Assembly: GCA_030602885.1 (NCBI GenBank)
Contig: JAUVYV010000015.1
Location: forward strand, 1-64,000
Direction: 5' to 3'
Length of the DNA: 64,000 bases
From: Phycisphaerales bacterium
Lineage (GTDB): Bacteria > Planctomycetota > Phycisphaerae > Sedimentisphaerales > Anaerobacaceae
Part shown: one piece after another, positions 26,743 to 53,158 of the stretch
Numbering within the stretch: the stretch's first letter is position 1
How the letters are laid out: every line of letters starts with the position of its first letter
Translations under genes and position numbers: made by a program
Notes under the pieces: generated by a model
The model's database searches: none
Seen by the model: the letters and a program-made list of their open reading frames with translations, nothing else
What the model was told of the DNA's origin: nothing

Positions 26743-27927
26743 TCAGGATTCGTGGGAAAGAAGCTTGCTGTAAACGGTCTCGATGGTATCGACCATTGTG
26801 TTAGGTGCGAATTTTTGTTTGACAGAATCGCGGCCCTGTCTGCCGAGCTTTTCGCGCAAAGGCCTGTTTTCTATCAGTTCGGCACAGGCGGCGATTAGTT
26901 GTTCAACGTTTTTGGGCTCGATGAGTCGGCCAGTGCTATCGATTACGACTTCACGGGCGCCATCGACGTCGAAGCTGATAGCGGGACGGGAGCAGAGCAT
27001 TGCCTGTGGCAGCGTACGGGCCAGGCCTTCACGGAGCGAGCAGTGGACGAGGATATCGGACGACTGGATGACAAGCGGGATTTGGTCAGGCGGCAGCAGG
27101 CCCGTGAAGCGGAATCGGTTTTCGAGACCAAGCTCTTTGACCTGCTGCTTATACTGGTCTGTTAATATACCGTCACCGACGAAGAGCCAGGTGACATTCT
27201 CGAATTTCCTGGAGAGTTCTTTTGCGGATTCGATGATGAAATCGTGGCCCTTGAGGTGGAAAAGGCGGGCGATGGTGACAAGGACGACCGCATCGGCAGG
27301 GATATCGTACTTGCGTCGAAAGTCCTGGCGCTGTTGTTCCGGGATGGGACTTAGGAAATCATCTTCTTCGATGGCGGAGTATGCGGTGACGTACTTTTCG
27401 GGCGCGGCGATACCTGCGGCCAGTGCCTGATTAGTCATTGCATCGGCGACGGAGATAAAAAAATCGGTTCTTTCGGCGGCGGCTTTTTCGACGGCGATGT
27501 AGAACTTGTTGAGCATGGAGCTTTGGTATGGATGAAATGCAAGGCCGTGGATGGTGTGCACTATTCTTGTATTGCGTATTGCGTATTGCGTATTGCGTAT
27601 GCTGTGGGCGGCGAATCGACCGAGGATACCGGCCTTGGCAGAGTGTGTGTGGACGATGTCGGGCTTGAGGTCGCGGAGCAGCTTTTTGAGATGGAAGTAT
27701 GCGGGTACGTCGTGGAAAGGGTTTATCTGTCGGCGGAGATTATCGACGATGATGAATTCAAAGCCCTGGCCTTTTGCCTGGTCGTAGAGGTCCCCTTCCG
27801 GGCCGAGCGCAGGGCCCGTTATCAAGGTAACATCATGGCCTCGCTCGGCCAGGAGCTTACAGGTAATAAGCGTATTCTCCTGCGCCCCGCCAAGAATTAA
27901 TCGTGTTATCACATGTACGATTCTCAT
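26743..27927 (-). CDS. GT4 family glycosyltransferase
   Basis: A 394-residue enzyme with the GT-B fold. The N-terminal part starts MRIVHVITRLILGGAQENT and has DIVHTHSAKAGILGRFAA; the C-terminal part has TIARLFHLKGHDFIIESAK, WLFVGDGILTDQYKQQV, and the nucleotide-sugar site HCSLREGLARTLPQAMLCSR plus DGAREVV. It should add a sugar to a cell-surface glycan or lipid. The residues HSIRNTQYAIRNTRIVHTIH come from an ATTGCGT tandem array that replaces the short loop seen in relatives, keeping the frame. The ATG at 27927 is a clear N-terminus. Confidence 0.9.
   Translation of the reverse strand: MRIVHVITRLILGGAQENTLITCKLLAERGHDVTLITGPALGPEGDLYDQAKGQGFEFIIVDNLRRQINPFHDVPAYFHLKKLLRDLKPDIVHTHSAKAGILGRFAAHSIRNTQYAIRNTRIVHTIHGLAFHPYQSSMLNKFYIAVEKAAAERTDFFISVADAMTNQALAAGIAAPEKYVTAYSAIEEDDFLSPIPEQQRQDFRRKYDIPADAVVLVTIARLFHLKGHDFIIESAKELSRKFENVTWLFVGDGILTDQYKQQVKELGLENRFRFTGLLPPDQIPLVIQSSDILVHCSLREGLARTLPQAMLCSRPAISFDVDGAREVVIDSTGRLIEPKNVEQLIAACAELIENRPLREKLGRQGRDSVKQKFAPNTMVDTIETVYSKLLSHES
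27566..27600. repeat. ATTGCGT tandem array inside the GT4 gene
   Basis: Four perfect ATTGCGT units in a row followed by a partial unit (ATGCTG). On the coding strand they give the residues IRNTQYAIRNT. Confidence 0.85.
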
Positions 27928-27945
27928 CGTATAAGTACACAGAAA

Positions 27946-27966
27946 ACAGAATGCAGAATACAGAAT
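27946..27966. repeat. ATTGT-type heptad array, left inverted copy
   Basis: Three units that read on the minus strand ATTCTGT ATTCTGC ATTCTGT. The 21-base core is identical, in inverted orientation, to 29387-29407 and 29401-29421. It lies between the four-helix-bundle stop and the GT4 start. The more degenerate array covers about 27939-27968. Confidence 0.85.
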
Positions 27967-27982
27967 GTTAGTAGCTCTGATT

Positions 27983-28348
27983 TCACACGTTCCTCTTAAC
28001 TGCATTACGGTAAGCAAATAGAAGTTTACTGACTTCTTCAGTTTGATTCAACAGGCTTCGTGCATCGCCATAGCCGAGGTCATTGGATAGAATGAAGTAG
28101 TATCTACATTCTTCCAGGGAACTTTGGGCGATGTTCAGGAAACGAGCCTTCTCTGCCTTGCTGTGTTTCCTGAAACTCTCCGCGATGTTTGCAGGGACAG
28201 AGACAGCGGCCCGTTTGAGTTGGGAGGTGAGTCCGTACCTCTCATCACCTGGAAAGGATTTACTGAACCGATATACGTCAAGCACCAATTGATGAGCCTT
28301 TTGCCACACTATAAGCTCTGTAAATTTCTCTGCAGATTTTCTACACAT
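27983..28348 (-). CDS. Four-helix-bundle protein (23S-IVS-like)
   Basis: A 121-residue protein of the stand-alone group related to proteins encoded in 23S rRNA intervening sequences (also like Avd of diversity-generating retroelements). The pattern is typical: FTELIVWQKAHQLVLDVYRF, GLTSQLKRAAVSVPANIAE, SLEECRYYFILSNDLGY. The fold makes pentamers in known members and may bind nucleic acid; the cell role is unknown. AAAGG is near the ATG. It lies in the cassette bounded by inverted ATTCTGY arrays, downstream of the PIN-like gene. Confidence 0.9.
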   Translation of the reverse strand: MCRKSAEKFTELIVWQKAHQLVLDVYRFSKSFPGDERYGLTSQLKRAAVSVPANIAESFRKHSKAEKARFLNIAQSSLEECRYYFILSNDLGYGDARSLLNQTEEVSKLLFAYRNAVKRNV

Positions 28349-28392
28349 ACAGCACCTTTTCTTCTTTGCCTTGATAGAGTATTTTTACTGTC

Positions 28393-29367
28393 CTACAAGG
28401 AGAATCCCTGCTTTTTCAGGTGTTCCACTCCTTGAGCTGCATTTGAGAACACCTTAGACTTGTAGCTCCGGTCTGCCCAAAGGACAAAGTGTTTTAGCTC
28501 TTTCTCTGTTAAAACAAAGTCGGCATAAGGAATAACGGGAATAAACATGTAATCGTCAACATCATTGTCATCTGGTGCTTTACCGGTATTGATCCTGTTT
28601 TCCCTGATTGTCCAATAGAGCTTTACTGCCGGACAATTCTCTGCATCAATTCTCGCTAATAGAACATCAACATCAATTCCTTGGTTGAAAGCCGTGAGAA
28701 CTCTGTCAATCTTCAAGAAATTCTTCATCCAATTCTTCCGACAGTAACCACGATCGGCGAAATACTCATCCTTTCGTTCAATGTCCTCCGCCAAAGAGGC
28801 ATTGAAACCATCCACCCTCTCTTGATACCTCTCTGGATTATTCCCTTTCAATTTTAACGTTTCCTCTACCCATTCCTTTACTGAGGCCACAGGGATTTCA
28901 GTGTGTATCATCCCCTCGTGTTTGAGCCGCTCCAACTCCTCTTTGGTAAAATAATCAGGAACTTGATCCGCCAACATGTGCAGGGCTGAATGAAAAGTAC
29001 TATTGTCAGAGATATTCTGCAGAATCGGGAAATCAGGTACGTTAATCGTAGGGGCCACCCTCCGGCACTCGTCAAGTACCTCACGAGTATAGATGAGGTA
29101 GTCTGCTTCAAGTAGGTACTTGAGTTTTGCAGAATCCACAACGGCAGCTATCTCGCTGGCGGACTTCACTGTTGCTTTGCCTTCGACCCATTCCAGCGTG
29201 GCATATTCATTGAAAATAAGGCCGCCACAGCATGATTTGATGAACTTATCGAGATATTCATAGGCATTTTCTGATTGGCCTGGTGGAAGCTTCTGCCCCT
29301 TTCGTACCTTTGCAATGTTAACCAGGTGATTGGTGTCGAGGTAGATTTTGGGTGGTTTCAGAATGAT
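28393..29367 (-). CDS. PIN-like domain protein with no standard start codon
   Basis: The frame continues without a stop from within the repeat array at about 29430 to 28393. Only the part from 29169 (GTG, 258 residues) has an ordinary start, but this would cut off the PIN-like opening KIYLDTNHLVNIAKV that reads in the same frame upstream. The PIN fold is further supported by acidic patches in DDNDVDDYMFIPVI and ADFVLTEKELKHFV. A site like AAGGAG at 29382-29377 would suit an ATC (29367) or ATT (29364) start. PIN proteins cut RNA, often as toxins, but no antitoxin is seen. Base content is more AT-rich than in neighbouring genes. Confidence 0.6.
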   Translation of the reverse strand: MILKPPKIYLDTNHLVNIAKVRKGQKLPPGQSENAYEYLDKFIKSCCGGLIFNEYATLEWVEGKATVKSASEIAAVVDSAKLKYLLEADYLIYTREVLDECRRVAPTINVPDFPILQNISDNSTFHSALHMLADQVPDYFTKEELERLKHEGMIHTEIPVASVKEWVEETLKLKGNNPERYQERVDGFNASLAEDIERKDEYFADRGYCRKNWMKNFLKIDRVLTAFNQGIDVDVLLARIDAENCPAVKLYWTIRENRINTGKAPDDNDVDDYMFIPVIPYADFVLTEKELKHFVLWADRSYKSKVFSNAAQGVEHLKKQGFSL

Positions 29368-29380
29368 TCGCTTATTCTCC

Positions 29381-29421
29381 TTCTGTATTCTGTATTCTGC
29401 ATTCTGTATTCTGCATTCTGT
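29381..29421. repeat. ATTCTGY heptad array, right inverted copy
   Basis: Six near-perfect 7-base units, ATTCTGT alternating with ATTCTGC. The array starts exactly at the truA stop codon and ends at the 5' end of the PIN-like frame. Confidence 0.9.
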
Positions 29422-29422
29422 C

Positions 29423-30163
29423 TCAATATTTTACCCACATCAAACACAAGCCTTGTGGGGGGGCTATTGGGCCGGCGGCGGTGCGGTCTTTGGCGTCGAG
29501 GATATCGGTTATTCTTTCAGGAGCCATTCGGCCTATGCCCACTTCCACGAGGGTGCCAACAATATTTCTTACCATATTATACAAGAAGCCGTCGCCTTCG
29601 ACATCTATGTATACGCTCTGGCTTTCGGCGGTGACGCCGCAGCTAAAAATCGTGCGTACCGAACTTTCGCGTTTGTCTTTTGCGGCGGCGAAGGATTTGA
29701 AGTCGTGTGTACCGATGAGAAGTTTTGCCGCTTTATCCATAGCGGGGACATCGAGTTTTTTGGGTATGTGCCAGCAGTGCCGAATATTCAAGACGGGACG
29801 GTCGGGCGCGGTGCAGATTGTGTAACGGTATAGCTTACTCGTGACACCGCCCATTACGTTGAACTCTTTATCGGCCGGCTCAGCGAAAGTGACAACGATT
29901 TCGGGTGGGAGGCGGTCGTTGATGGCGCCGGCAAAGTTTTCGATGGGTATTGGTGAATTGACTTCAAAGACGGCAACCTGGCCAAGCGCACTGACGCTGG
30001 CGTCGGTGCGGCTCGCGGCACGGACGGTTATCTTGTGGCCGACGAGATTCGAGATGGCTTCGGAGAGTTCACCCTGGATGGTCCTTTTTCCCGGCTGGAT
30101 TTGCCAGCCGTGGTAATCATAGCCGTCGTACTGAACTGTTAACCTTATCTTGCGACGCTGCAT
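29423..30163 (-). CDS. truA: tRNA pseudouridine synthase A
   Basis: A 246-residue enzyme that makes pseudouridine at positions 38-40 of tRNA. The catalytic Asp54 is in SRTDASVSALGQV (usually GRTDAGVHA in the family, so three residues of the motif differ). Other parts are LTVQYDGYDYHGWQIQPGKR, KEFNVMGGVTSKLYRYTI, IGTHDFKSFAA and DGFLYNMVRNIVGTLVEVG. It follows asd by nine bases. The ATTCTGY array abuts its stop. Confidence 0.95.
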   Translation of the reverse strand: MQRRKIRLTVQYDGYDYHGWQIQPGKRTIQGELSEAISNLVGHKITVRAASRTDASVSALGQVAVFEVNSPIPIENFAGAINDRLPPEIVVTFAEPADKEFNVMGGVTSKLYRYTICTAPDRPVLNIRHCWHIPKKLDVPAMDKAAKLLIGTHDFKSFAAAKDKRESSVRTIFSCGVTAESQSVYIDVEGDGFLYNMVRNIVGTLVEVGIGRMAPERITDILDAKDRTAAGPIAPPQGLCLMWVKY

Positions 30164-30172
30164 CGCAGGTGA

Positions 30173-31174
30173 TTATAGCAGTTTTTCGGCGATTTGCACG
30201 GCGTTAAGGGCTGCTCCCTTGCGAAGCTGGTCGCCGGCGACCCAGATATTGATTCCGCGATTTTCAGGTACTGAAAAATCCTGGCGGATTCTGCCGACAA
30301 GGACGTCATCTTTGTCGGTGGCGTCGATGGGCATCGGGAATCGATTGTGTTCGCGGTCGTCGAGGACGGAAACGCCTGGAGCAACGCTGAGCAGGTCTCT
30401 GACCTGGTCCGGGGTGATCGGGTCGGTGAACTCGAGGTTGATGCTCTCGCAATGCGCTCTGAATACCGGGATGCGAACGCAGGTGCAGGTAATTGCGATG
30501 TCGGGACAGTCGAAAATCTTCCTGGTTTCTTTGACCATTTTGACTTCTTCGAGGTTATACCCGTCGGGGTCGAGCTGAGAGTTATGGCTGAAGATGTTGA
30601 AGGCAATCTGGTACGGAAACGCCTTGCAGGTGGGCGATTTTCCCTCAAGGATTTCTCTGGTCTGGCTTTCGAGCTCGAGCATTGCAGAGGTTCCTGCGCC
30701 GCTGGCGGCCTGGTAGGTAGAGACAATCATTCTCTTAACGGGGTTTGCCTTGTGCAGCGGCCAAACGGGGACAATGCCGATTATGGTCGAGCAATTCGGG
30801 TTGGCAATAATCCCTTTGTGCTGTTTGATTGCCTGGGGATTAATCTCAGGTATGACCAACGGGACATCCGGGTCCATTCTAAAGGCGGAAGAGTTATCGA
30901 CGACGACCGCACCTGCCTCGATGGCGGCGGGCGCGAACTCTTTGCTTCGGCTCGCACCTGCACTGAAAAGGGCGATGTTAACGCGGTCGAAGCTCTTTTT
31001 GGTCATCTCTTCGACGATGTATTCTTTTCTTTTGAAGGTGATTTTCTTGCCGGCTGAACGGCTGCTTGCGAGCATCCTGACCGAATCAAAAGGGAAATCA
31101 CGCTGTTCGATGATTTTTAAGAATTCCTGTCCTACTGCTCCGGTCACTCCTGCAATTGCGAGGTTGCAGCTCAT
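30173..31174 (-). CDS. asd: Aspartate-semialdehyde dehydrogenase
   Basis: A 333-residue enzyme that reduces aspartyl phosphate to aspartate semialdehyde with NADPH, on the way to lysine, threonine and methionine. The NADP site AIAGVTGAVGQEFLK opens the protein, Cys128 in ANPNCSTIIGIVP is catalytic, and FRAHCESINLEF and NIWVAGDQLRKGAALNA close the pocket. The ATG at 31174 puts the nucleotide site in the standard place. The promoter is at 31263-31291 and a hairpin lies in the leader at 31212-31239. Confidence 0.97.
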   Translation of the reverse strand: MSCNLAIAGVTGAVGQEFLKIIEQRDFPFDSVRMLASSRSAGKKITFKRKEYIVEEMTKKSFDRVNIALFSAGASRSKEFAPAAIEAGAVVVDNSSAFRMDPDVPLVIPEINPQAIKQHKGIIANPNCSTIIGIVPVWPLHKANPVKRMIVSTYQAASGAGTSAMLELESQTREILEGKSPTCKAFPYQIAFNIFSHNSQLDPDGYNLEEVKMVKETRKIFDCPDIAITCTCVRIPVFRAHCESINLEFTDPITPDQVRDLLSVAPGVSVLDDREHNRFPMPIDATDKDDVLVGRIRQDFSVPENRGINIWVAGDQLRKGAALNAVQIAEKLL

Positions 31175-41649: not shown

Positions 41650-41675
41650 ACGCGATACGCGATACGCGATACGAG
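41650..41675. repeat. GATACGC tandem array
   Basis: Three units of GATACGC/GATACGA. A second array of the same word is at 52109-52136, in the same orientation and also preceded by GTTT-G-AACGC-like bases. Confidence 0.8.
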
Positions 41676-41690
41676 TTTCAATCCCTCCCC

Positions 41691-41709
41691 CTTCTCACTT
41701 CTCACTTCC
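41691..41709. repeat. ACTTCTC tandem array, second copy
   Basis: CTTCTCACTTCTCACTTC; the same family as 155-187. Confidence 0.65.
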
Positions 41710-52027: not shown

Positions 52028-52051
52028 TTATTACATATTACATATCACATC
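52028..52051. repeat. TTACATA/TCACATA tandem array
   Basis: ATTACATATTACATATCACAT-like steps in AT-rich DNA; of the same style as the other short arrays. Confidence 0.6.
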
Positions 52052-52108
52052 CCTCATACCCGTCAACCCAAAAAATCGAACCGAAATTTACCCGCCATCC
52101 GTTTGGCG

Positions 52109-52136
52109 GAACGCGATACGCGATACGCAATACGCT
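52109..52136. repeat. GATACGC/AATACGC tandem array, second copy
   Basis: ACGCGATACGCGATACGCAATACGC. It links the GATACGC family (41650) with the ATTGCGT family (27566), since the reverse complement of AATACGCAATACGC is the GCGTATT word. Confidence 0.8.
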
Positions 52137-52948: not shown

Positions 52949-53048
52949 TTATGCAAAACAAACCCAATTTTCACAAGGCCCACAATGAACTTAACTCTAT
53001 ACTTGAAAAGGAATTACGAAAAATATTCACCCCTCCGAACGGTGAAAA

Positions 53049-53158
53049 GCAAACCCAAAGCAAACCCAATCAAACCCAATTCAAAGCCAATTTCAGCCCA
53101 AACAAACCCAAACAAAGCCAATTCAAACCCAAAACGAACCCAATATCAGCCCAAAAAT
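53049..53158. repeat. AAACCCAA-rich degenerate repeat tail
   Basis: About 110 bases of imperfect AAACCCAA/AAAGCCAA steps. A frame through it (Lys/Gln/Asn/Pro-rich) runs on antisense into tRNA-Ala, so I treat it as a repeat and not a gene. It follows the STGPRT-family gene directly. Confidence 0.75.

Follow-up and report, generated by a model that had tools for sequence, protein, structure and literature searches.

The window analysed here is a 64,000-nucleotide stretch of a contig from a Phycisphaerales bacterium (JAUVYV010000015.1, positions 1 to 64,000). On its minus strand, an element of about 1.5 kb (27927..29420) separates two host genes of one operon, truA (29423..30163; PF01416) upstream and a gene for a GT4 glycosyltransferase (26743..27927; PF00534 and others) downstream, which occur in the order asd-truA-GT4 in relatives. 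The element begins with a 5′ arm of about 5.9 heptamer units (29381..29420; CAGAATG CAGAATA and so on). This is followed by a reading frame that is open for 325 codons (28393..29370), which we call the cargo ORF, and by a gene for a 121-residue IVP/S23 four-helix-bundle protein (27983..28348; hereafter IVP). The element ends with a 3′ arm of about 4 units (27939..27966), an inverted array that reads ATTCTGT ATTCTGC ATTCTGT on the minus strand, with an additional degenerate unit TTTCTGT.

The original prediction placed inverted ATTCTGY arrays at both borders of this segment, and they lie where it put them. The two arms form an inverted repeat of 27 bp with one mismatch (alignment score 49), whereas the flank pairs of 47 other ORFs in the window score no more than 24 in the same test. 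No matches to the 21-base array core are expected in shuffled sequence, and a two-unit heptamer pattern detects both window arrays and one extra place (C56:493) in the 3.2-Mb host genome. The arrays border truA and GT4 as claimed, but the fit is looser than proposed: the right arm starts 2 bp past the truA stop codon (29423-29425) rather than exactly at it, and about a dozen bases separate the left array, adjacent to GT4 as it is, from the GT4 ATG (27925-27927).

Assignment of the IVP gene is certain, with matches to PF05635 (1.6e-36) and TIGR02436 (2.7e-34). The protein also matches the structure of XCC0516 from Xanthomonas campestris (PDB 2gsc; 6e-20), a toroidal homopentamer of four-helix bundles according to the description cited in PMC4990558. 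Values of dN/dS between 0.06 and 0.19 in diverged pairs indicate purifying selection. IVP contains no known transposase, recombinase or nuclease motif and has no match in phage records, and profile searches of the element (the IVP gene and the unassigned ORF) identify no transposase domain. The element shares terminal inverted repeats with insertion sequences and DNA transposons but is without a recognised transposase domain.

Two motifs read by eye in the cargo ORF, LDTN near the start and YADFVLTEKEL near the end, suggest a PIN-like protein. Of the predicted pair of a PIN-like and a four-helix-bundle gene, the latter is secure, whereas the PIN identity comes from motifs only, with no match in family, structure or defence (PADLOC) searches. 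A single-sequence AlphaFold2 model of the cargo ORF is unusable (mean pLDDT 38). The PIN-like motifs, and the presence of both genes together in the window, would be expected of a toxin-antitoxin or defence cassette in which a PIN-like RNase is paired with a four-helix-bundle partner and the repeats are incidental; VapBC systems have PIN-domain toxins, although the window ORF lacks a profile match. VapBC pairs are, however, conserved pairings, whereas most IVP genes have no companion between the arms, and homologues of the cargo ORF occur in only 2 of the 197 other genomes of the class that were searched, the better of which has no IVP gene among its listed ORFs. In addition to the absence of a PADLOC match, the full cargo ORF is without a canonical start codon, no ATG, GTG or TTG being present upstream of the first one at 29169. 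With a partner ORF so rare, and an IVP gene that generally occurs by itself, we rejected the two-gene toxin-antitoxin reading, which we regard as very improbable, and the original idea of a two-gene system falls with it. The cargo ORF is accessory cargo of the element and IVP is the only conserved gene.

The truA and GT4 genes of eight relatives at the family level are overlapping or directly contiguous, so that the cassette is absent from the corresponding interval. Comparison of the empty site in one of these (L068; AATATTGAGAATCGT) with the window junctions (AATATTGAGA/CAGAATGC and ATACGA/TGAGAATCGT, where the slash marks the junction) points to a 5-bp target duplication, TGAGA, on either side of the element, with copy 1 overlapping the truA stop codon (29421..29425) and copy 2 overlapping the GT4 start codon (27922..27926). 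Presence and absence at matching sites support the original proposal that the inverted arrays are the ends of a mobile unit.

Five further filled and empty sites are found on the cyanobacterial side, on plasmids. In a three-gene region common to several Nostoc plasmids, an IVP element lies between genes 1 and 2 in three plasmids and a different IVP element lies between genes 2 and 3 in one plasmid, while others have neither; the apparent duplications are TTCTA at the first site and TAATG/TTATG (one mismatch) at the second. The border between cas10 and cmr3 in Picosynechococcus is filled in PCC 7003 and empty in PCC 7002. Plasmids of Calothrix and Tolypothrix offer the same contrast at the border of an integrase gene, as do those of Nostoc and Calothrix at the border of a TraM gene and at an nrd border. 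A target duplication is legible at two or three sites only and is illegible at plasmid sites 3-5 (Picosynechococcus, Calothrix/Tolypothrix and TraM/nrd), and part of the presence and absence on plasmids could come from recombination after a single insertion.

These comparisons bear on whether any unit moves at all. Heptamer hairpins of Nostoc and Geobacter have been interpreted as regulatory (PMC2670836, PMC2700814), and the arrays could similarly be regulatory or structural repeats (hairpins, STRR or quadruplex-type sequences) that control IVP as a host gene. Such repeats do not account for the joint gain and loss of arms and gene at filled and empty sites, or for homologous plasmids that have distinct IVP elements at adjacent positions. 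This interpretation is already strongly disfavoured, and we consider it highly unlikely.

Arms are also found without a gene. The truA-GT4 junction of one relative (G019, L060) contains an 89-bp gene-less inverted array pair, gene-less armed inserts occur in frame inside truA of relatives, and a gene-less armed insert of 182 bp lies inside an IVP gene in pNPM1. If mobilised in trans, these short inserts with inverted ends would resemble MITEs. Six relatives (L048, L049, L052, L053, L058 and L059) have other inserts of 0.5-1.0 kb at the truA-GT4 junction, which therefore seems to be an insertion hot spot. At the 3′ end of L067 (G004:C231), truA continues into an array of CAGGAAACAGGAGACAG heptamers at the junction that the element occupies in the window; beyond this array the contig finishes in what is apparently leftover sequencing-adapter sequence.

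The host genome encodes five IVP proteins, and reading of the flanks by eye places each gene between inverted period-7 arrays with a unit of its own (ACGAGNN, ACGAAAT, AAGTNNN, ATTCTGY and TCAAAAG). The expectation that other loci are framed in the same way is borne out for inverted period-7 arrays around other IVP genes but not for the ATTCTGY core, which is not general, the heptamer varying by protein clade. We measured framing by aligning the 300 bp upstream of each gene with the reverse complement of the 300 bp downstream, and compared the pairs belonging to a locus with pairs swapped between loci. Mean scores are 32.3 for own and 18.2 for swapped pairs at 34 loci of the host and its relatives, and 36.9 and 18.4, respectively, at 76 loci from a scan of genomes of many phyla, a sample that is not random because it was drawn from the 80 top-scoring hits to an alignment of proteins from the host group. 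Scores of at least 30 are reached by 48 of these 76 loci as against 2.3% of swapped pairs, and period 7 is prominent among the periods of 3 to 14 tested.

Matched inverted arrays are present at 71 of 112 IVP (PF05635) loci but at only 2 of 343 control positions, which were pseudo-gene positions within the same loci (p 7.6e-51). This agrees with the original suggestion that genes for four-helix-bundle proteins are associated with such repeats. The window element lies outside this count of 71, its cargo having placed one arm 1 kb away. The 41 loci below the framing threshold represent arm decay, a period of 9 or 10 (as in some gut Bacteroidetes), the end of a contig or a genuine exception. Heptamer framing is a general feature of IVP genes in many phyla. 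The window contains further heptamer arrays (ACGCGAT, CTTCTCA and GTATTGC), as might be expected if repeats born by slippage came to lie on both sides of the gene by chance, but this explanation is statistically refuted by the comparisons of own with swapped flanks and of IVP loci with controls, and its probability is negligible.

Among 54 elements with clean arms, the heptamer correlates with protein relatedness (Mantel correlation 0.26), and does so when only cross-phylum pairs are considered (0.23, matched by 0 of 1000 permutations). Proteins that are at least 60% identical have a heptamer similarity of 0.65 against a baseline of 0.43, with no such sharing in the reverse orientation, and window-type proteins carry CAGRAKN-like units in Acidobacteria, Cyanobacteria, Nitrospirota, Ignavibacteria and Planctomycetes. 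The heptamer is element-specific and tracks the protein clade, with the 7-base period and the inverted layout as the shared features. Arms and protein are inherited together, although linked inheritance without recognition could be an alternative source of the correlation. The arms have a polarity: on the sense strand of the gene, G exceeds C in the upstream arm of 46 elements and C exceeds G in 6; the dinucleotide AG returns with a 7-base spacing in 42 of 54 elements as against 5 for the complement. Median arm length is 5.3 units, and 66 of 108 arms have 4-6 units.

Using the longest ORF on each side as a crude neighbour call, IVP shares its strand with the upstream neighbour in 46 of 48 cases and with the downstream neighbour in 40 of 43. 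Where both neighbours share a strand, IVP is in the sense orientation in 36 cases and antisense in none; the one antisense IVP is a plasmid case. In many elements the arms reach from the upstream gene's stop codon to the start codon of the gene that follows. None of 20 IVP loci of relatives is in rRNA, and five adjoin a tRNA. An IVP clade (FEKLLVYQKAVDFAD) lies around 170-180 bp from a tRNA gene in five genomes (L034, L035, L037, L038 and L042), where the arms are weaker.

This strict sense orientation within operons is also what might be seen if the element spread at the RNA level, with the arms pairing in the transcript, RNase III cutting the stem, and IVP acting as an Avd-like partner of a reverse transcriptase. 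Excision of the Coxiella rRNA IVS by RNase III has been observed in vitro (PMC4990558), and IVP, which belongs to the same four-helix-bundle fold class, is distantly similar to the Avd protein of diversity-generating retroelements (1.1e-5, a score under the Avd cut-off, and 6e-7 in another search). However, G-U and A-C mismatches between arms are balanced (47:43, p 0.75), without the excess of G-U over A-C that visible selection on the RNA stem would leave. The host genome (97.6% complete), with its five IVP genes, has no match to the reverse transcriptase profile PF00078 that a diversity-generating retroelement would call for, and neither do several relatives with 7-13 IVP genes. We therefore discarded both selection on an RNA stem and the requirement for a resident reverse transcriptase. 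These two absences count against the RNA route, which we judge unlikely.

A mobile origin of the 23S rRNA IVS has been proposed previously. The IVS of Leptospira and Coxiella resembles the window element in containing one small ORF of the same protein family, S23p, between inverted terminal repeats. It differs in that the window element lies between protein-coding genes of an operon, carries a cargo ORF, has clade-specific arrays at both ends and has identifiable empty sites; a search of 27000-30500 against Rfam gives no match and the flanking genes are truA and GT4, placing the element outside 23S rRNA. The Coxiella IVS has tandem heptamers (GACAGAT) upstream of the S23p ORF and a 28-bp terminal stem (PMC4990558), from which it follows that the rRNA IVS is probably the same element at another location.

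Heptamer repeats have been described in Xanthomonas (GGGAATC), as cyanobacterial STRR and as five-unit hairpins in Geobacter. They comprise 4-5 heptamers, often in inverted pairs, are mostly intergenic between co-oriented genes, and are found at different genes in related species (PMC4692102, PMC2700814). About 70 inverted pairs of GGGAATC arrays are reported from the Xanthomonas campestris genome. The heptamer repeats of these three groups resemble the gene-less copies reported here, and their descriptions mention neither an enclosed gene nor any connection with IVP; our search for a Xanthomonas plasmid copy found none. The open-access literature that we searched contains no link between heptamer arrays and the IVP family, and an earlier description elsewhere is possible. 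IVP genes in CRISPR-cas loci have been discussed in terms of a CRISPR-associated function (PMC3936711). In our data such genes lie between cas10 and cmr3 and also between cas6 and cas4, and the empty cas10-cmr3 border of PCC 7002 suggests mere insertion. REP/RAYT systems likewise appear to pair one protein with a family of short repeats, some copies of which lack the gene, but IVP is without an HUH/Y1 transposase domain, and its arms are heptamer arrays where REP sequences are single palindromes.

Taken together, we think it likely that the window segment is a mobile, operon-dwelling element made up of inverted heptamer arms, an IVP gene and one cargo ORF, that IVP is the reader of the arms, and that the rRNA IVS is the same element in rRNA. 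That IVP reads the arms is the simplest inference because it is the sole conserved gene and its sequence predicts the arms. IVP would recognise the arms, perhaps with one AGNNNNN heptamer for each subunit of a five-bundle ring, and would join the two ends for transfer, with either IVP itself or an enzyme borrowed from the host cutting the strands. The match between a five-fold ring and around five heptamers per arm is suggestive. The element has no evident promoter; transcription that reads through from the host operon could express it and would account for both its sense orientation and its position at gene borders. Copies that landed in rRNA operons would be the 23S rRNA IVS. A bolder version, to which we give rather less than even chances, is that IVP is a new type of mobility protein, unlike known transposases, whose five-fold ring reads about five AGNNNNN units per arm, with one unit for each subunit, and carries an operon-resident element across numerous phyla, and that the over-represented heptamer repeats of bacterial genomes, 23S IVS and CRISPR-locus IVP genes are all its products.

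IVP elements that settle in operons behave as a little-recognised kind of mobile DNA. A great many genomes have an annotated IVP/S23 'four helix bundle protein', for which no function is known; a role at the core of a mobile element would supply one. Three old puzzles become testable, namely the origin of the 23S rRNA IVS, the over-representation of heptamers in many bacterial genomes and the presence of IVP in CRISPR loci. By the same token, the neighbours of IVP genes should not be taken as functional partners.

A second instance of a cargo gene was considered at a Nitrospira locus (L102) and rejected, the distant upstream array lying in the middle of an ORF that resembles a type I restriction specificity subunit, just upstream of the IVP gene. 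Within the window, a perfect GTATTGC heptamer array of 4.6 units (27569-27600), read as IRNTQYAIRNTR, lies in the GT4 coding region; a similar insert is present in the GT4 gene of one relative (G014, L066) and absent from those of others. Heptamer arrays with no IVP gene nearby are also present (CTTCTCA, ACGCGAT and TATTACA; 155-181, 41650-41708 and 52029-52135), with the ACGCGAT array at two places. A longer, degenerate tandem array of the AAATCAAACCC type at 53046-53155 has periods of 11-53 and is unlike the heptamer arrays.
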